Positions 30,959-39,537 of a stretch of 64,000 nt of DNA are shown one piece after another (position 1 is the stretch's first letter; every line of letters starts with the position of its first letter). The DNA is from Bacillota bacterium. Its GTDB lineage: Bacteria > Bacillota > Sulfobacillia > JAIMAT01. A program made the translations under genes and the position numbers. The stretch spans positions 124,001 to 188,000 of the forward strand of contig JASBVM010000023.1 of the NCBI GenBank assembly GCA_029961055.1, given 5' to 3'. The notes beneath the pieces are model-generated. The model searched no databases, was not told the origin of the DNA, and was given only the letters and a program-made list of their open reading frames with translations.

Positions 30959-31423
30959 TCAGGAGCCTGCGATCAGGTCGGCCAGGCGGGCCAGGAAGCG
31001 GTCTGCAGCCTCGGGCGGCTTGACCACCACGAAGACCGTCCGCTCCCCGGCCAGCGTTCCCAGCACCTCTTCGAAGTGCAGGACGTCGATGGCCTCGGCC
31101 ACGCTGGCCGCCGTCGCCGGTAGCGTCTGGATCACGACCATGTTGCAACTGGAATCATATCCCAGGATGGACTCCCGGCAGATCCGCTTCAACTGGTCGA
31201 TGCGGGCCGGGCTGGGTGCCTCCTGCGGCGGCGCGTAACGGTAGCGGCCGTCCCCCGTGGCGAGCTTGACCAGCTGGAGCTCGCGGATGTCGCGGGAGAC
31301 GGTCGCCTGCGTGACCGGGAAACCTTCCTTGCCGAGCAGTTCGGCCAACTCTTCCTGGGTGGCGATCACGCGGCTCTGCACCATCTCCAGGATCCTTCGC
31401 TGGCGCTCCGCCTTGCTGGTCAA
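30959..31423 (-). CDS. argR: Arginine repressor
   Basis: 154 residues from TTG 31423, which overlaps the nadK stop (TTGA) and has GGGGAGGGG 6 nt upstream. N-terminal winged helix (RQRRILEMVQSRVIATQEEL, with TQATVSRDIREL as recognition helix), C-terminal arginine-binding domain with the trimer motif TLPATAASVAEAID and a GERTVFVVV strand. It represses arginine biosynthesis and activates catabolism in Bacillus. Length is standard. Confidence 0.95.
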   Translation of the reverse strand: MTSKAERQRRILEMVQSRVIATQEELAELLGKEGFPVTQATVSRDIRELQLVKLATGDGRYRYAPPQEAPSPARIDQLKRICRESILGYDSSCNMVVIQTLPATAASVAEAIDVLHFEEVLGTLAGERTVFVVVKPPEAADRFLARLADLIAGS

Positions 31424-32295
31424 CCGGACCCCTCCCCTGGAGCGCGGAAGCGATCGGGGGGCCTCTCCCCCGCCGGTTCCAGGCCCTCCATGCGGCGCAG
31501 GCCCTCCCGCAGCGCGTCGACGGGGTGGTAGCTGGCCGGGCGCAGGAAGCGGACCTCCCGGGTGGAGAGCCGGACACGCACCGGCCGGCCGGGAGGCACC
31601 TCGCGCTGCCTCTGGCCGTCCAGCACCACCACCACGTCGTCGGCGCGCGGCGCCGCGACCTCCACCTCCCGCCCCGGCGCCAACACCACCGCCCGGGGAA
31701 GCGCCGCGTGGGGCGCCACGGGGCAGGCGAGGAGGGCGGGCAGCGCCGGGTCCACCACCGGTCCCCCCACCGCGTAGGCGTAGGCGGTGGAGCCGGTGGG
31801 CGTCGCCACCAGCAGGCCGTCGCCCCGGTAGCGGTAGAGGAGACGGCCTTCGACCCGCAGCTCCACCTCCAGCGTCCGCCCGGAACGCTGCCGCGCGATC
31901 AACGCGTCGTTCAGCACGAGGGGCGGCGCTTCCTGCCCGTCGCCCACGCGCACCTCCAGGAGGCGGCGCCGGTCCTCCACCCAGCCCTCCGTCTCGAGGA
32001 AGCGGTCCCAGTCCGGCTCCTCTTCCTGATGGAGCGAGACGGAGGCGAGGAAGCCCAGGTGCCCCAGGTTGACGGGCAGGACCGGTACCCCCGCCTGGGC
32101 CATCCGCTCCGCCCACTGCAGGACGGTGCCGTCACCCCCCAGGAGGATCAGCCGGTCGAAGCCGGAGAGCGGCTCCGGCGCCTCCGCGCTGATCTGGGCG
32201 ACCTGCCAGCCCCGCCGGGCGGCGGCCGCCGCCAGCGCCACCGCCGCCTGCAGCGCCATGGGCTTGGCCGGGTTGAGGATGACGCCGAGCCGCAT
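31420..32295 (-). CDS. nadK: NAD kinase
   Basis: 291 residues. Phosphate-binding GGDGTVLQWA near 53-62, NLGHLGFLASV, the NDALIARQRSGRTLEVELRV block, and the Gly-rich GDGLLVATPTGSTAYAYAVGGP near 158-179 in which the threonine/serine residues contact NAD. The enzyme makes NADP. The C-terminal 20 residues are a poorly conserved tail. In the order tlyA-(dapA-like)-icd-nadK-argR it matches the usual Firmicutes/Actinobacteria tlyA-nadK-recN linkage with two inserted genes. Confidence 0.95.
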   Translation of the reverse strand: MRLGVILNPAKPMALQAAVALAAAAARRGWQVAQISAEAPEPLSGFDRLILLGGDGTVLQWAERMAQAGVPVLPVNLGHLGFLASVSLHQEEEPDWDRFLETEGWVEDRRRLLEVRVGDGQEAPPLVLNDALIARQRSGRTLEVELRVEGRLLYRYRGDGLLVATPTGSTAYAYAVGGPVVDPALPALLACPVAPHAALPRAVVLAPGREVEVAAPRADDVVVVLDGQRQREVPPGRPVRVRLSTREVRFLRPASYHPVDALREGLRRMEGLEPAGERPPDRFRAPGEGSG

Positions 32296-33653: not shown

Positions 33654-34454
33654 TCAGCCGCCGCGAAGCATCCCCAGGTCCAAGAGCAGGGCGTACATCG
33701 CCCCGCGTTCCTCCGCGCCGGCCTCCCCCGGCGCACCCACCGGCGCCCCGCCGAAGTACCCCTCCAGCTCCATGGCGAGCTTCACCCGCTCGACCCGGCC
33801 CGCCAGCCGTCGCTCCAGCGCCGCCAGGCGCTCCCAGAGGTGCGCCGGCAGCGGGGCGCCCGCGTCGGCCGCCGCCCGGACGGCCCGCCAGAGGTCGGCC
33901 GCCTGCCAGGGGGCGACGGCGGCGACGGGGGTGAGGAGGCCCTCCGGCAGCCGCCCGCCGCCGCCCGGGGAAGGCCGGATCGACTCGAGGCTCTCGGCCC
34001 AGAGCGGGACGGCGCCCGCCGCGCCTCCGGGGCCGTCCGCCCGCGCCGGGCCCGCGCCGGCCCGACCGGCACCGTTCTTCGTGCCCGCCGGCGGCAGCGC
34101 GCGCGCCCAGGGCAGCCCGACCGCCAGGAGTTCCTCGGGAGGCGGACCCTCCGCCAGGAAGCCGGCCGGCCGCGCCAGGCGGACCAGCTCCCGCGCCTCC
34201 CCGGGGCTGACGGTGCGGAGGTCGAGGACCACCGGCCGCTCGCTGGCCGCCAGCGTCCTCCGGTACAGCTCCCGCCGCCCCTCCGGGCCCAGGGCCTCCG
34301 GTTCCGACCAGGCGCCGAGCACGACAAAACCGGCGGGTTCCGCGCCCGCCGCCATGGCCAGGTTCTCCTCCAGGAGGTCGAAGGCCGGTTCCCCGCCCTC
34401 AGTCGGCGTCAGCACGGGGATCCAGATCCCGCGAGGAAGCGTCCCCCGCTCCAT
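33654..34454 (-). CDS. Degenerate dihydrodipicolinate synthase-like protein
   Basis: 266 residues from ATG 34454, preceded by GGGGGAGG; it overlaps the tlyA end by 56 nt. The first 100 residues resemble the DapA/NAL barrel ([24 protein letters not shown] split over 9-33, [23 protein letters not shown] near 42-64). However, the catalytic YNxP tyrosine and the Schiff-base lysine regions are not recognisable; a low-complexity Gly/Ala stretch occupies about 120-145. An enzymatically inactive member or a new function is likely. True DapA would be expected to act in dipicolinate synthesis, but this protein should not be assumed to. Confidence 0.6.
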
Positions 34455-35244
34455 CCGCGTCGCCTCCCCCACGGCGGCGACCGAGGCGCCGGTGCGCCTC
34501 CGCCACCACGCCGGCGATCCGCTCCGGGCCGAGCCGTCCCGCGGCCCCGCGCCGCCAGAGGACGAAGAACTCGATGTTGCCGCTGGGGCCGGTGACGGGC
34601 GAGAAGGTCAGGCCCTCCGCCCCGAGCCCCAGCGCGGCAGCGGCCTCGTCCACCTGGGCGAGCACCCGCCGGTGGACCGCCGGGTCGCGCACCACGCCGC
34701 CCTTCCCCACCTGGTCGGGCCCCGCCTCGAACTGCGGCTTCACCAATGCCACGACCGAGCCCTCGGTGCCGAGGAGAGGCACCAGCGCGGGCAGGATCTT
34801 GGCCAGCGAGATGAAGGAGACGTCCACCACGGCCAGGTCGAGCGGCTCCGGGATCTCCTCCCTGCCCAGATAGCGCGCGTTGACGCCCTCCCGGACCACC
34901 ACCCGCGGGTCGTTCCGCAGGCGCCAGGCCAGCTGGCCGTGCCCCACGTCCACGGCGTAGACCCTGGCGGCGCCGCCCTGGAGGAGGACGTCCGTGAAAC
35001 CGCCGGTGGAGGCGCCGACGTCGGCGCAGACGGTGCCCCCGACCTCCAGGCCGAAGTCGGCCAGCGCCCCGGCCAGCTTCTTCCCGCCGCGGCTGACCCA
35101 GCGCTCGCCGGGCAGCACCTCCAGCACCGCGCCGGGCGGCAGGCGCTCTCCCGCCTTCCGGGCCGTCCGCCCGTCCACGCGGACGCGCCCTTCCAGGATG
35201 GCGACCTGGGCCGCCTGGCGCGAGGGGACCAGCTTCCTCTCCAC
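34399..35244 (-). CDS. tlyA: TlyA family 16S/23S rRNA 2'-O-methyltransferase
   Basis: 281 residues if started at GTG 35244. S4 domain at the N-terminus (KLVPSRQAAQVAILEGRVRVDG), then an FtsJ-type methyltransferase with the SAM motif CADVGASTGGFTDVLLQ near 86-102, the K-D-K residues in SRGGKKLAGAL, DLAVVDVSFISL and VALVKPQFE. Normal homologues have about 6-8 more S4 residues, and the matching LDQLL is present just upstream of this GTG, so the true start may be CTG 35259 or another non-standard codon. Known as YqxC in Bacillus, directly after dxs. Confidence 0.88.
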   Translation of the reverse strand: MERKLVPSRQAAQVAILEGRVRVDGRTARKAGERLPPGAVLEVLPGERWVSRGGKKLAGALADFGLEVGGTVCADVGASTGGFTDVLLQGGAARVYAVDVGHGQLAWRLRNDPRVVVREGVNARYLGREEIPEPLDLAVVDVSFISLAKILPALVPLLGTEGSVVALVKPQFEAGPDQVGKGGVVRDPAVHRRVLAQVDEAAAALGLGAEGLTFSPVTGPSGNIEFFVLWRRGAAGRLGPERIAGVVAEAHRRLGRRRGGGDADGAGDASSRDLDPRADAD

Positions 35245-35282: not shown

Positions 35283-37202
35283 CTACACCTCCCCCTCGAT
35301 CCCGCTCGGCCGGAGCTCCCGGCTCAAACCGAGCAGCTCGCCCGCCGCCCGGGCGATGCCGGCCGCATCCAGGCCGAACTGATGGTACTGCAAGACGGGA
35401 TCGCCGTGTTCGATGAACCGGTCGGGCAGGCCCAGGACCCGCGTGCGCAGGTCCCAGTGGCCATGGGCGCTCAGCCACTCGAGCACCGCGGAGCCGAATC
35501 CGCCCAGCGCCGTCCCCTGCTCCACCGTCACCAGGGCGCGATGGCTCGTCGCCACCCGTTCCAGCATCTCGCCGTCCAGAGGCTTCACCCAGCGGGCGTC
35601 CACGACGCTGGCCTCCACCCCGGCGCCCTTCAGCAGGTCGGCCGCCGCCAGCGCCTGGTGGACGGCGGGACCGACGGCCACCAGCGCCACGTCCCTGCCC
35701 TCGCGGAGCCACTCCGCCCGGCCGACGGGAAGCGCCTCCGGCTCGGGGTCGAGCGGCACGCCGACGCCCTCCCCGCGCGGGTAGCGGATGGCGATGGGGC
35801 CTTCGCGGTACTCCAGCGCCGTGGCCACGGCGTGCTGCAGGGCGTTCTCGTCCCGCGGCACCAGGATCGCCATCTCCGGCACCATGCGCAGGAAGGTGAG
35901 GTCGAAGGCGCCCTGGTGCGTGTCGCCGTCGGCCCCCACCAGGCCCGCCCGGTCGATGGCGAAGACCACGGGCAGCTTCTGGTGGCAGACGTCGTGGATG
36001 ATGGAGTCCACCGCCCGCTGGAGGAAGGTCGAGTAGATGGCCACCACCGGGTGGAGCCCGCCCAGGGCGAGGCCGGCCGCAAAGGTGACGGCGTGCTGCT
36101 CGGCGATGCCCACGTCGAAGAAGCGATCGGGGAAGGACTCGGCGAAGCGGGCGAGGCCGGTCCCCTCCGGCATGGCCGCCGTGATCGCCACCACCTCCGG
36201 CCGCTCGCTCGCCAGCCGGGTGAGCGTCCTGCTGAAGACGCTGGTGTAGCTGGGCGGAGCTGCCGGTTTCGGGATCGGGCGGCCGGTCCGCGGGTCGAAG
36301 GGACCCGGCCCGTGGAAGCCCTCGGGGTTCCGCTCGGCGGGCGCGTAGCCATGCCCCTTCTCCGTGACGGCGTGGACCAGCACCGGTCCGCGCGTCCGTC
36401 GCGCGTCCCGCAGCACCTCGATCAGCTCGCCCAGGTCGTGCCCGTCGATGGGGCCCAGGTACTTGATGCCCAGCTCCTCGAACCAGATGCCCGGCAGGAG
36501 CAGCGACTTGACGCCCATCTTGAGCCGCTCCGCCGCCCGCGCCATCTGCGGCCCCAGCGCCGGGATGGACTCGAGCAGCTCGGTCAGCTCCTCCTTCCGC
36601 CGCGAGTAGGCGGGGGCTGTCCGGATGGCGGCCAGGTAGCGGCTGAGCGCGCCCACGTTGGGCGAGATGGACATGGAGTTGTCGTTGAGGACGATGATCA
36701 GATCGCTCCGGCTCTGGCCCGCGTTGTTGAGCGCCTCCAGCGCCAGCCCCGCGGTCAGCGCGCCGTCGCCGACCACCGCCACCACCTTGTGCTGCTGGTG
36801 CCTCAGGTCGCGGGCGGTGGCGTAGCCCAGCGCACCCGAGAGGGCGGTGCCCGCGTGGCCGGCCTCCCAGACGTCGTGGACGCTCTCCGAGCGCTTGAGG
36901 AAGCCGCTCATGCCGCCGGGCTTGCGCAGGGTGGCGAACTGGCCGAGCCGCCCGGTGAGGAGCTTGTGCGGGTAAGCCTGGTGGCCCACGTCCCAGAGGA
37001 TCTTGTCGCGCGGGCTGGAGAAGACGGCGTGAAGGGCGACCGCCAGCTCCACGGTCCCCAGGTTGGCGGCCAGGTGACCGCCGTTCCGCGCCACCGTCTC
37101 CACGATCTCGGCACGGATCTCCCGCGCCAGGCGACGGAGCTGATCCAGGTCCATCCGCTTCAGATCTTCCGGACCCCGGATCTGCTCGAGAAGCCGTTCC
37201 AT
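35283..37202 (-). CDS. dxs: 1-deoxy-D-xylulose-5-phosphate synthase
   Basis: 639 residues from ATG 37202 with GAGGAT upstream. Thiamine-diphosphate enzyme: GHLAANLGTVELAVAL near 41-56, DVGHQAYPHKLLTGR near 69-83, the cofactor motif VVGDGALTAG and LNDNSMSISPNVG near 150-195, and the transketolase second half with IAEQHAVTFAAGLAL. Condenses pyruvate and glyceraldehyde-3-phosphate at the head of the MEP isoprenoid pathway. Together with ispA upstream this makes an isoprenoid operon with the OLE/oapA pair between. Confidence 0.97.
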   Translation of the reverse strand: MERLLEQIRGPEDLKRMDLDQLRRLAREIRAEIVETVARNGGHLAANLGTVELAVALHAVFSSPRDKILWDVGHQAYPHKLLTGRLGQFATLRKPGGMSGFLKRSESVHDVWEAGHAGTALSGALGYATARDLRHQQHKVVAVVGDGALTAGLALEALNNAGQSRSDLIIVLNDNSMSISPNVGALSRYLAAIRTAPAYSRRKEELTELLESIPALGPQMARAAERLKMGVKSLLLPGIWFEELGIKYLGPIDGHDLGELIEVLRDARRTRGPVLVHAVTEKGHGYAPAERNPEGFHGPGPFDPRTGRPIPKPAAPPSYTSVFSRTLTRLASERPEVVAITAAMPEGTGLARFAESFPDRFFDVGIAEQHAVTFAAGLALGGLHPVVAIYSTFLQRAVDSIIHDVCHQKLPVVFAIDRAGLVGADGDTHQGAFDLTFLRMVPEMAILVPRDENALQHAVATALEYREGPIAIRYPRGEGVGVPLDPEPEALPVGRAEWLREGRDVALVAVGPAVHQALAAADLLKGAGVEASVVDARWVKPLDGEMLERVATSHRALVTVEQGTALGGFGSAVLEWLSAHGHWDLRTRVLGLPDRFIEHGDPVLQYHQFGLDAAGIARAAGELLGLSRELRPSGIEGEV

Positions 37203-37331
37203 CTTCGATCCTCGCCCCCGCTCTCCCAGGCTGCGCACTGCCCTCGGTGCGCTTTGTAAGGGTAAGTGTAGCAGGATCGGTACCGGCCTCCCACCGCGCT
37301 CCCGCCCGGCGCAGCGCCCGTCGCCGGGAGC

Positions 37332-37913
37332 TCAGCGCCCCTTCCGGTCGGGAAGGAGCGTCACGTGGAAGACCCGCTCCACCCAGGCCAGCGCCCGGGC
37401 CAGGAGGAAGACGATCTCGTTGGCGTGGCCCAGCGCCACCCCCTTCATCCCCGCCTTCCCCCCGACGGTGAGCGAGGCGGCCAGCGCCACCAGGAGGCCC
37501 GCCTCCAGCGAGCTCTCGCTGGTGAAGAGCCGGATCGCGATCGCCGTCGCGGCCGAGCCCGAGATGGTGCCGGCCAGGTCGCCCATCACGTCGTTGGCGA
37601 TGCTGGTCACCTTGTCCGCGTTCCGGATCAGCTGGATGGCCTGGCGGGCGCCGGGGATCCGCTTGCTGGCCATGGCGTGGAAGGGCGCCTCGGCCGCCGT
37701 GGCCGTGGCCAAGCCCACGGCGTCGGCCAGGACGCCCACCACCACGATCAGGAGCAGGATGCCGAAGGAGAGGAAGAGGGGGAGGCCGCGCATGGCTTCC
37801 TGCGACGGGAGGGTGACGAACCAGGCGATGAGGAAGCTGACCGAGCCGATCGTCAGACCGCGTTTGAGGTCGCTGCCGAAACTTCGACCGGGTCGACCCA
37901 AGGGGTTGGCCAC
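37332..37913 (-). CDS. oapA: OLE-associated protein A (OapA-type membrane protein)
   Basis: 193 residues from GTG 37913; TTG 37901 has a better spaced GGGAGG and a longer frame runs to 38003. About four membrane helices (TIGSVSFLIAWFVTLPS, LFLSFGILLLIVVVGVLADAV, the SGSAATAIAI segment and a C-terminal helical region). The motif EAPFHAMASKRIPGARQAI near 82-100, followed by RNADKVTSIANDVMGDLAG, is characteristic of OapA (DUF21-like). In Bacillus halodurans OapA binds the OLE RNA and carries it to the membrane, with roles in cold, ethanol and metal tolerance. The gene directly follows the OLE-like RNA and precedes dxs, the conserved arrangement. Confidence 0.88.
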   Translation of the reverse strand: MANPLGRPGRSFGSDLKRGLTIGSVSFLIAWFVTLPSQEAMRGLPLFLSFGILLLIVVVGVLADAVGLATATAAEAPFHAMASKRIPGARQAIQLIRNADKVTSIANDVMGDLAGTISGSAATAIAIRLFTSESSLEAGLLVALAASLTVGGKAGMKGVALGHANEIVFLLARALAWVERVFHVTLLPDRKGR

Positions 37914-38004
37914 GCCTCCCGTCAGGGGTGGGGCGGGCGCCGCGCCAGGCGACGCCCCGAGTCGGGACTCACACGGAAAAACAAGAAGCAGGTGGCGGCG
38001 CACC

Positions 38005-38572
38005 GGGTAAACCTTGCGGCTTAGGTCCAGTAGGATTTCCCCGCCGTCCCCCCGCCGTCGCCGGCGAGGGGGTTTCCCATTAAGACGGCGTCACCGGGTC
38101 GCCCGCGGTGAGGCTGGATTGCCACTGAGCACGCACCCTAATCCCCGGCGCACCTCGTGCGAACAGCCTAGGGGTTTTCCCCGGCGGCTTCCGCATCCCC
38201 TTAGCCTCTTTTGCAGGCATGGTTTCGGACGGCGTGCCGCGCCGCCGCCCGGGCCCTGGGCGATCGGCCGGTGACCGCCTTCCACCGCTACCCACGCAAG
38301 GCAGGCTACGCTACAGGCGGTTCAGCCACCTGTAGGTTCTACCCGGCGCCGTGCCGGCGACCGGGCCTCCGCGGAGCTAGGGTCTGGTCCGCATGCCGTT
38401 GCGGGCAGCCCCAACTCCTTACTCCCAGTGACGACCCCCGACTGGGCGTCGAAAGCCGCCACCAGGAACTTCATCGATGTGCCCGACGGCGGATTTTTAG
38501 GCCCGCCTTCAAGGACAGGAAGCCGACTAGGATACTGCGCCACCTGCAAAACCCGCAAGTATGCCGGCTGCA
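38005..38572 (-). ncRNA. ole: OLE RNA (Ornate, Large, Extremophilic)
   Basis: About 570-600 bases between ispA and oapA with no plausible protein in any frame. The minus-strand sequence carries several perfect stems: CTACAGG/CCTGTAG near 38312-38335, GGGGAAAACCCC near 38170-38181, GCACGAGGTGC near 38150-38160, GGCGG/CCGCC enclosing CCUAAAAAU near 38487-38506, and CGCCGTC/GACGGCG near 38050-38090. Size, position upstream of oapA and the isoprenoid/nusB/xse neighbourhood match the known OLE RNA class of anaerobic and extremophilic Firmicutes, which forms a membrane ribonucleoprotein with OapA. I could not compare it base by base with the consensus; both ends are estimated (5' from the promoter, 3' near a TTGTTTTT run at 37977-37984). 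Confidence 0.82.
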
Positions 38573-38578
38573 AAGCCC

Positions 38579-38587
38579 AGTATACCA
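38579..38587 (-). promoter_or_regulatory. Extended -10 promoter-like box before the OLE RNA
   Basis: Minus-strand TGG-TATACT, an extended -10, 24 nt after the ispA stop. It would start transcription near 38572, at the beginning of the structured region, giving the RNA its own promoter in addition to operon read-through. Confidence 0.45.
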
Positions 38588-38610
38588 TGAGACGGCCGCC
38601 GCTGCCGGCC

Positions 38611-39537
38611 TCAGCCCTGGCGATTCCGCACCAGTTCCACCAGGCGGCGCAGGCGCTCCGCCGCCTCGCCCCGGTACGCCTGGAGGGCGCCCAGCGCCTC
38701 GCCGGCCAGCCGGTCGGCCAGCCGGCGGGCCTCTTCGGCACCGGCCAGGGTGACGACGCTGGAGGGCTCGCCCTTGGCCGCATCCAGCAGGTCGTCCGTC
38801 ACCTGGAAGAGAAGGCCGAGCTGGCGCGCGAAGCGGCCCAGCGCGCTTCCGGCCTCCGCCCGGCTCCCGGCCGCCAGCGCCCCCACCTGGACGCACGCCA
38901 GGAAGAGGGCGCCGGTCTTCATCGACTCCAGCTCCAGCAGCGCCTCCAGCGAACCCGGGCCCGCGGGCTCCAGGTCGAGCTGCTGGCCGCCCACCAGCCC
39001 GGCCGGACCCGCGGCCCGGGCGAGCGCCCGCATCATCTCCACCCGGGTGGCCGGCGGGAACGCGGCCTCGGCCAGCCAGGCGAAGGCCAGCGGCTGGAGC
39101 GCGTCACCGGCGAGGATGGCGGTCGCCTCGTCGAAGGCGCGATGGAGCGTCGGCCGGCCGCGGCGGAGGTCGTCGTCGTCCATGGCCGGCAGGTCGTCGT
39201 GGACGAGCGAGTAGGCGTGGACCAGCTCCAGGGCGCAGGCCGGCCCCAGCAGGGGGTCGCCCGCGTCGCGGCGGCCTGGAGCGCCGGCACCGCGGCCCGG
39301 GCCGGCGGGGGCGGGCGACTGGCTCCCGCCCTCCAGCAGGAGGTCGCGCACCCAGACGGCCAGGATCGGCCGGATCCGCTTGCCCGGGCCGAGCACCGCA
39401 TAGCGGATGGCCTCGGCCAGCCGCCCGGGCGTCCCCTCCGCCTCCAGCCCGGCCAGGCGCCGCTGGAGCGCGGCGTCCACCCAGACCCGGTCGAGCTCCA
39501 GCGCCTCGCCGACGTCCAACCGGCCGCGGTGGCTCAT
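38611..39537 (-). CDS. ispA: Polyprenyl (farnesyl/geranyl) diphosphate synthase
   Basis: 308 residues. All-helical prenyltransferase with the first aspartate-rich motif DDLPAMDDDD (114-123) and the second in FQVTDDLLD near 248-256; GKRIRP near 52-57 binds diphosphate. Chain length (C15 likely) is inferred from family and context. ATG overlaps the xseB stop by 4 nt. A Pro/Gly-rich insertion at about 72-92 is longer than in typical IspA. Confidence 0.93.
   Translation of the reverse strand: MSHRGRLDVGEALELDRVWVDAALQRRLAGLEAEGTPGRLAEAIRYAVLGPGKRIRPILAVWVRDLLLEGGSQSPAPAGPGRGAGAPGRRDAGDPLLGPACALELVHAYSLVHDDLPAMDDDDLRRGRPTLHRAFDEATAILAGDALQPLAFAWLAEAAFPPATRVEMMRALARAAGPAGLVGGQQLDLEPAGPGSLEALLELESMKTGALFLACVQVGALAAGSRAEAGSALGRFARQLGLLFQVTDDLLDAAKGEPSSVVTLAGAEEARRLADRLAGEALGALQAYRGEAAERLRRLVELVRNRQG

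Follow-up and report, generated by a model that had tools for sequence, protein, structure and literature searches.

Does the gap between the polyprenyl synthase gene ispA and a short membrane-protein gene in this genome encode an OLE RNA and, if so, does that RNA retain what would be expected of a functional member of its class? We addressed this question in the window, by which we mean the whole 64,000-nucleotide stretch of DNA that was analysed. A first-pass annotation had placed a gap of about 600 nt between ispA and an OapA-type gene. The location is as described, and the length is closer to 700 nt (an approximate value), with the ispA stop near 38611 and the oapA start near 37913 or 37901. 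Likewise, the span originally assigned to the finding, 37332-38610, takes in oapA as well as the RNA proper. The principal features are the following.

37976..38559, reverse strand: complete OLE RNA (RF01071), 584 nt, 67% GC, from cmscan, conserved positions and class covariation
38611..39537, reverse strand: ispA, polyprenyl synthase (Pfam PF00348), directly upstream of OLE
37332..37913, reverse strand: oapA, 193-aa membrane protein, GTG start near 37913, alternative TTG start at 37901
35283..37238, reverse strand: dxs (Pfam PF13292), directly downstream of oapA
30959..31426, reverse strand: argR (Pfam PF01316/PF02863), in the same gene cluster

When the window was searched with Rfam cmscan, we observed a match to RF01071 (OLE RNA) at 38559-37976 on the reverse strand that spans model positions 1-616 and scores 415.5 bits (E = 1.3e-118), the gathering score being 50. 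The first-pass annotation had named this covariance-model search as the means by which its assignment could be overturned; the score is far over the threshold, other RNA families give no match, and RF01071 is the sole Rfam match in the entire window. The full-length match thus confirms the proposed membership of the OLE class. The 584-nt core agrees with the length of about 600 nt expected of OLE, 225 of the 249 upper-case consensus positions are retained, and the RNA is present in a single copy in the source genome, which is an incomplete draft (96%). The RNA is 67% GC as compared with 74% for the window, a figure that bears out the earlier description of a high-GC organism, and a SpoIIIAH gene recognized by Pfam agrees with the description of a spore former. 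The window RNA is therefore a member of an already known class, from an uncultured Bacillota lineage of 74% GC, and not a new kind of RNA. The nearest record is that of Bacillota MAG isolate Bu54 (JASBVS010000047.1), which belongs to the same genus.

The RNA gene lies beside oapA and the isoprenoid and xse genes, as is typical of OLE. It is followed by oapA, dxs, a TlyA-type methyltransferase gene, an ORF, an isocitrate/isopropylmalate dehydrogenase gene, the NAD kinase gene and argR, the product of which has been reported as a candidate OLE partner (PMC12265935). Window genes with Pfam support comprise those for polyprenyl synthase, Dxs, the TlyA-like methyltransferase, XseA, FolD, Asp23, SpoIIIAH, NAD kinase and ArgR. 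Thus, of the setting near xseAB, nusB and dxs that had been described initially, xseA and dxs are supported by Pfam, and xseB and nusB were read by eye. The ORF between tlyA and the dehydrogenase gene (33654-34472, 272 aa) has no Pfam match and, as judged by eye, resembles a relative of dihydrodipicolinate synthase.

As a single sequence, the window OLE strand folds with a predicted energy of -323.9 kcal/mol (z = -5.2), and none of 100 dinucleotide shuffles reaches a value as low. We then aligned 34 OLEs from the class to which the source belongs, two of them from its genus; on this alignment RNAalifold yielded 160 consensus pairs, arranged as has been published for OLE. Standard pairing is found in 95.3% of the 5414 cells of this alignment and falls to 37-48% when the partner is slid by 1-3 columns, figures that are biased towards the structure because the structure came from the same alignment. 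The count of compensatory changes carries more weight: changes on both sides are observed in 106 of the 160 pairs, as compared with 60.6 ± 3.5 in shuffles. The stem-loops noticed at first sight in the gap are real by this measure. Three helix strands are placed as follows.

38539..38547, reverse strand: 5' strand of P1 (GCAGGTGGC; helix 1), which pairs with 37988-37996 and closes the RNA
37988..37996, reverse strand: 3' strand of P1 (GCCACCTGC; helix 1)
38511..38525, reverse strand: 5' strand of P3+P3.1 (helices 4 and 5), 15 bp with a 1-nt bulge by duplex prediction

P1, which joins both ends of the RNA, is unpaired in the model line of RF01071 but strongly supported in the class alignment, where 9 of its 10 pairs have changed on both sides and 93% pairing is seen across the 34 sequences. 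P3+P3.1 has been proposed as a membrane-crossing helix of OLE (PMC12265935). In the relatives for which it could be measured, this helix is mostly 14-15 bp (range 11-17, where two sequences, L007 and L062, were left out owing to failed sequence anchors and the longest, L017, comes from a mis-placed anchor), and its sequence varies throughout. Since length is kept while sequence turns over, the helix fits a membrane-spanning model, and this is a fit and not a test. The same constancy of length is seen in other helices, P5 among them. That P3+P3.1, which is intact in the window, serves as a ruler spanning the membrane in a proposed integral-membrane OLE is a conceivable but doubtful reading of its near-constant length and full sequence turnover. 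The Shine-Dalgarno/anti-Shine-Dalgarno mimic of P6, the reported bS21 binder of OLE, is only partial in the window OLE by inspection.

Cryo-EM of OLE has described a symmetric A-A contact through L4, contacts through L5, L6 and L7, and a self-complementary L9.3 kissing loop carrying GGCC, GAUC or AGCU (PMC12286853). Two of these elements can be located in the window.

38488..38506, reverse strand: P4 hairpin, capped by the conserved loop CUAAAAA (cmscan alignment); it corresponds to dimer bridge B1 of the cryo-EM model
38251..38257, reverse strand: L9.3 loop AGGGCCC with the palindrome GGGCCC, a predicted apical loop for self-kissing, bridge B3

The CUAAAAA loop of L4 is nearly invariant across the 34 class sequences. 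L9.3 is mostly GGGCCC in the class, and the other forms AGGCCT, GAGCTC, CGGCCG and GGCGCC, the last in L017 and, by inspection, in L027, are all palindromes as well; a few loops (e.g., L006, L008 and L018) have the inner GGCC only or are unclear. Judged by sequence, then, the dimer elements that were checked, an A-rich L4 and a self-complementary L9.3, are present in the window OLE. Separately, we observed that the OLEs of five loci (L004 and L058-L061) lack the P9.3 arm, so that an L9.3 kissing contact is impossible in them.

The first-pass annotation had also pointed to a promoter-like start, and this can now be given a form.

38587-38579, reverse strand: extended -10 element TGGTATACT, which lies shortly before OLE and past the 3' end of ispA and recurs in the class

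Of 35 class members, 16 have an exact TGNTATNAT ahead of OLE and 23 have it when one mismatch is allowed; the corresponding rates in mononucleotide shuffles are 0.6% and 9%. A generic scan for sigma-70 -35/-10 promoters and terminators at OLE found nothing, indicating that the putative promoter is of the extended -10 type and lacks a -35 element. The recurrence of TGNTATNAT suggests that OLE is probably served by a separate promoter inside the operon. Transcription would start near 38572 and give a transcript of about 597 nt; an abundant discrete transcript at the membrane is a hallmark of the class.

Given that Pfam and NCBIfam do not recognize the window OapA, its identity was taken from homology, synteny, co-occurrence and fold. 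In four named Clostridia MAGs that encode proteins 39-51% similar to it, an OLE scoring 480-487 bits lies directly upstream of the gene in each case. Of the 42 loci with OLE or OapA that were examined, 39 contain an OapA ORF. Class members have OapA proteins with weak matches to PF01595. An AlphaFold2 model of the window protein (pLDDT 84) has CNNM-family chains as all six of its top PDB matches, including the transmembrane domains of CNNM MtCorB and CorC, with a best TM-score of 0.57 and modest E-values of 0.007 to 0.5. Among 154 class genomes, both OLE and OapA are found in 99 and neither in 53; the two discordant genomes are incomplete, one (G078, 85% complete) holding an OLE fragment alone and the other (G069, 78% complete) OapA alone. 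Together, these observations identify the protein adjoining OLE as OapA, in agreement with the original reading of the gene. As a property of the class, OapA binds OLE RNA 2:1.

The source genome encodes the other partners as well. OapB was located by reading the map-infA interval, and the best PDB match of this protein is OLE-associated protein B (E = 5.9e-8); a search of the genome with PF00467 (KOW) missed it and returned two proteins only, L24 and NusG by position. OapC is an L7Ae-family protein (1e-11) encoded, by sequence reading, between rpoC and rpsL, and bS21 is encoded too. No CNNM/MpfA protein was found in the source genome.

These results bear on whether the locus could be a decayed OLE gene that still matches the family after its RNA function has gone. 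The 24 of 249 conserved consensus positions that differ and the P9 pairs that are non-standard in the cmscan alignment would be consistent with decay, but no helix has been lost, the promoter and an intact OapA are still there, and the two same-genus copies, which are 91-93% identical to the window OLE and so differ by 7-9%, have kept the structure. Moreover, MpfA, the supposed replacement, is absent from the source genome. We consider decay very unlikely.

MpfA-type proteins are found in 25 of the 100 class genomes with OLE as compared with 44 of the 54 without it, the genomes not being independent of one another. The anticorrelation of OLE and MpfA, which has already been reported (PMC11332333, PMC12054373, PMC12265935), is thus repeated in the source's class. 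The lowest-scoring complete OLEs (270-310 bits) belong mostly to two families, f6 and f36, nearly all members of which have MpfA. In L062 and L063 of f6 and in f36, a divergent complete OLE occurs beside MpfA-type CNNM proteins in the same genomes, f6 carries two neighbouring copies of these proteins, and OLE and OapA are both gone from one f6 genus (g44). This pattern, from few independent lineages, is suggestive of a replacement in progress.

If OLE were no free-standing RNA but a cis-regulatory element or untranslated leader serving oapA/dxs, this would account for its place immediately ahead of oapA, on the strand of that gene, and for the lack of a recognized terminator in our scan. In several relatives, however, OLE is still intact where oapA is on a different contig or at a distance of 363 kb, indicating that the conservation of OLE is independent of its leading oapA, and P1 pairs the two ends of the RNA with each other. 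This interpretation, too, has very little probability. That the gap is protein-coding and was misread as RNA is less probable still, as the overlapping mechanical ORFs of 153-180 aa are expected at 74% GC, the 106 compensatory pairs and the frequent changes in length among the 34 sequences fit an RNA and not a reading frame, and a conserved frame with protein-level selection is absent from the class alignment.

The loci in which oapA lies apart from an intact OLE are L012 (G028), G059, G060, L007 (G010), G077, L029 (G035) and G086; oapA is on another contig or, in G059, 363 kb off, and by sequence reading dxs directly follows OLE in L012 and L029. Two database records also drew attention. NZ_AP023421.1, a 504-kb record labelled as a conjugative plasmid of Pusillibacter faecalis, contains a full OLE of 399.8 bits (L066:5986-6650) together with oapA, dxs, tlyA, nadK, argR and recN. 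We rejected it as a case of OLE on a true plasmid because it carries housekeeping genes. It is probably either a chromid or a piece of chromosome under the wrong label. Likewise, MT835614.1, filed as 'Bacteriophage sp.', encodes OapA (L067:818-1432) along with xseA, tlyA, nadK, argR and recN, and an OLE match was not found in its first 12 kb; its gene content is that of a bacterial chromosome fragment, and OapA on a phage was rejected.

Overall, we put a probability of roughly 0.93 on the reading that the xseA-xseB-ispA-OLE-oapA-dxs cluster of the window includes an entire and apparently functional OLE gene, which has an extended -10 promoter of its own. In the published picture, the OLE RNP resides at the membrane, is organised by OapA, OapB and OapC, and takes part in stress and Mg2+ responses (PMC11332333, PMC12054373, PMC12265935). 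Applying the class mechanism (drawn from PMC11332333, PMC12265935, PMC12286853 and PMC12054373) to the window, we would expect its OLE RNA to be made at a high level, as in published work on the class, and to dimerise via L4, L5/L6 and the L9.3 loop. OapA would hold the RNA at the membrane through P2 and P4a, OapB would shape it at P13, and OapC would act at the k-turn near P5. The assembled particle may then act in stress and divalent metal ion responses, and OLE may do the work of the MpfA-type Mg2+ exporters found in OLE-free bacteria.

OLE ranks among the largest of the structured RNAs in bacteria that have no assigned biochemical function. The GC-rich OLE of the window, with all partners encoded and MpfA absent, is a reasonable structural target, and its main structural interest lies in the 3' domain, which is unresolved in cryo-EM of Clostridium OLE. 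The class data repeat the published coupling of OLE with OapA and its anticorrelation with MpfA among Bacillota relatives, and they bring in lineages where OLE is no longer linked to oapA, and others where a divergent OLE accompanies MpfA.

Compared with known systems, the window OLE is of the full-length type represented by Halalkalibacterium halodurans and Clostridium acetobutylicum, with which it has in common the whole model, P1-P9 and the helices of the 3' domain, together with the A-rich L4 loop, the L9.3 palindrome and the placement between ispA and oapA. It differs from that type in its 67% GC and in its length, which is short of the model's 616 positions by about 30 nt, most of them in P7 and P8. 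It also shares the conserved core of OLE variants 1 and 2 (TANB77 and RF39 clades; PMC11332333). These variants lack or shorten P7-P9 and mostly do without OapB and OapC (PMC11332333), whereas the window OLE keeps P7 (shortened), P8 and P9.3, and its genome keeps OapB and OapC. Finally, the window OapA has, by prediction, the CNNM transmembrane fold in common with the CNNM/MpfA/CorC Mg2+ transporters, but it differs from them in being about 190 aa long, in having no CBS or CorC domains and in being tied to OLE RNA.
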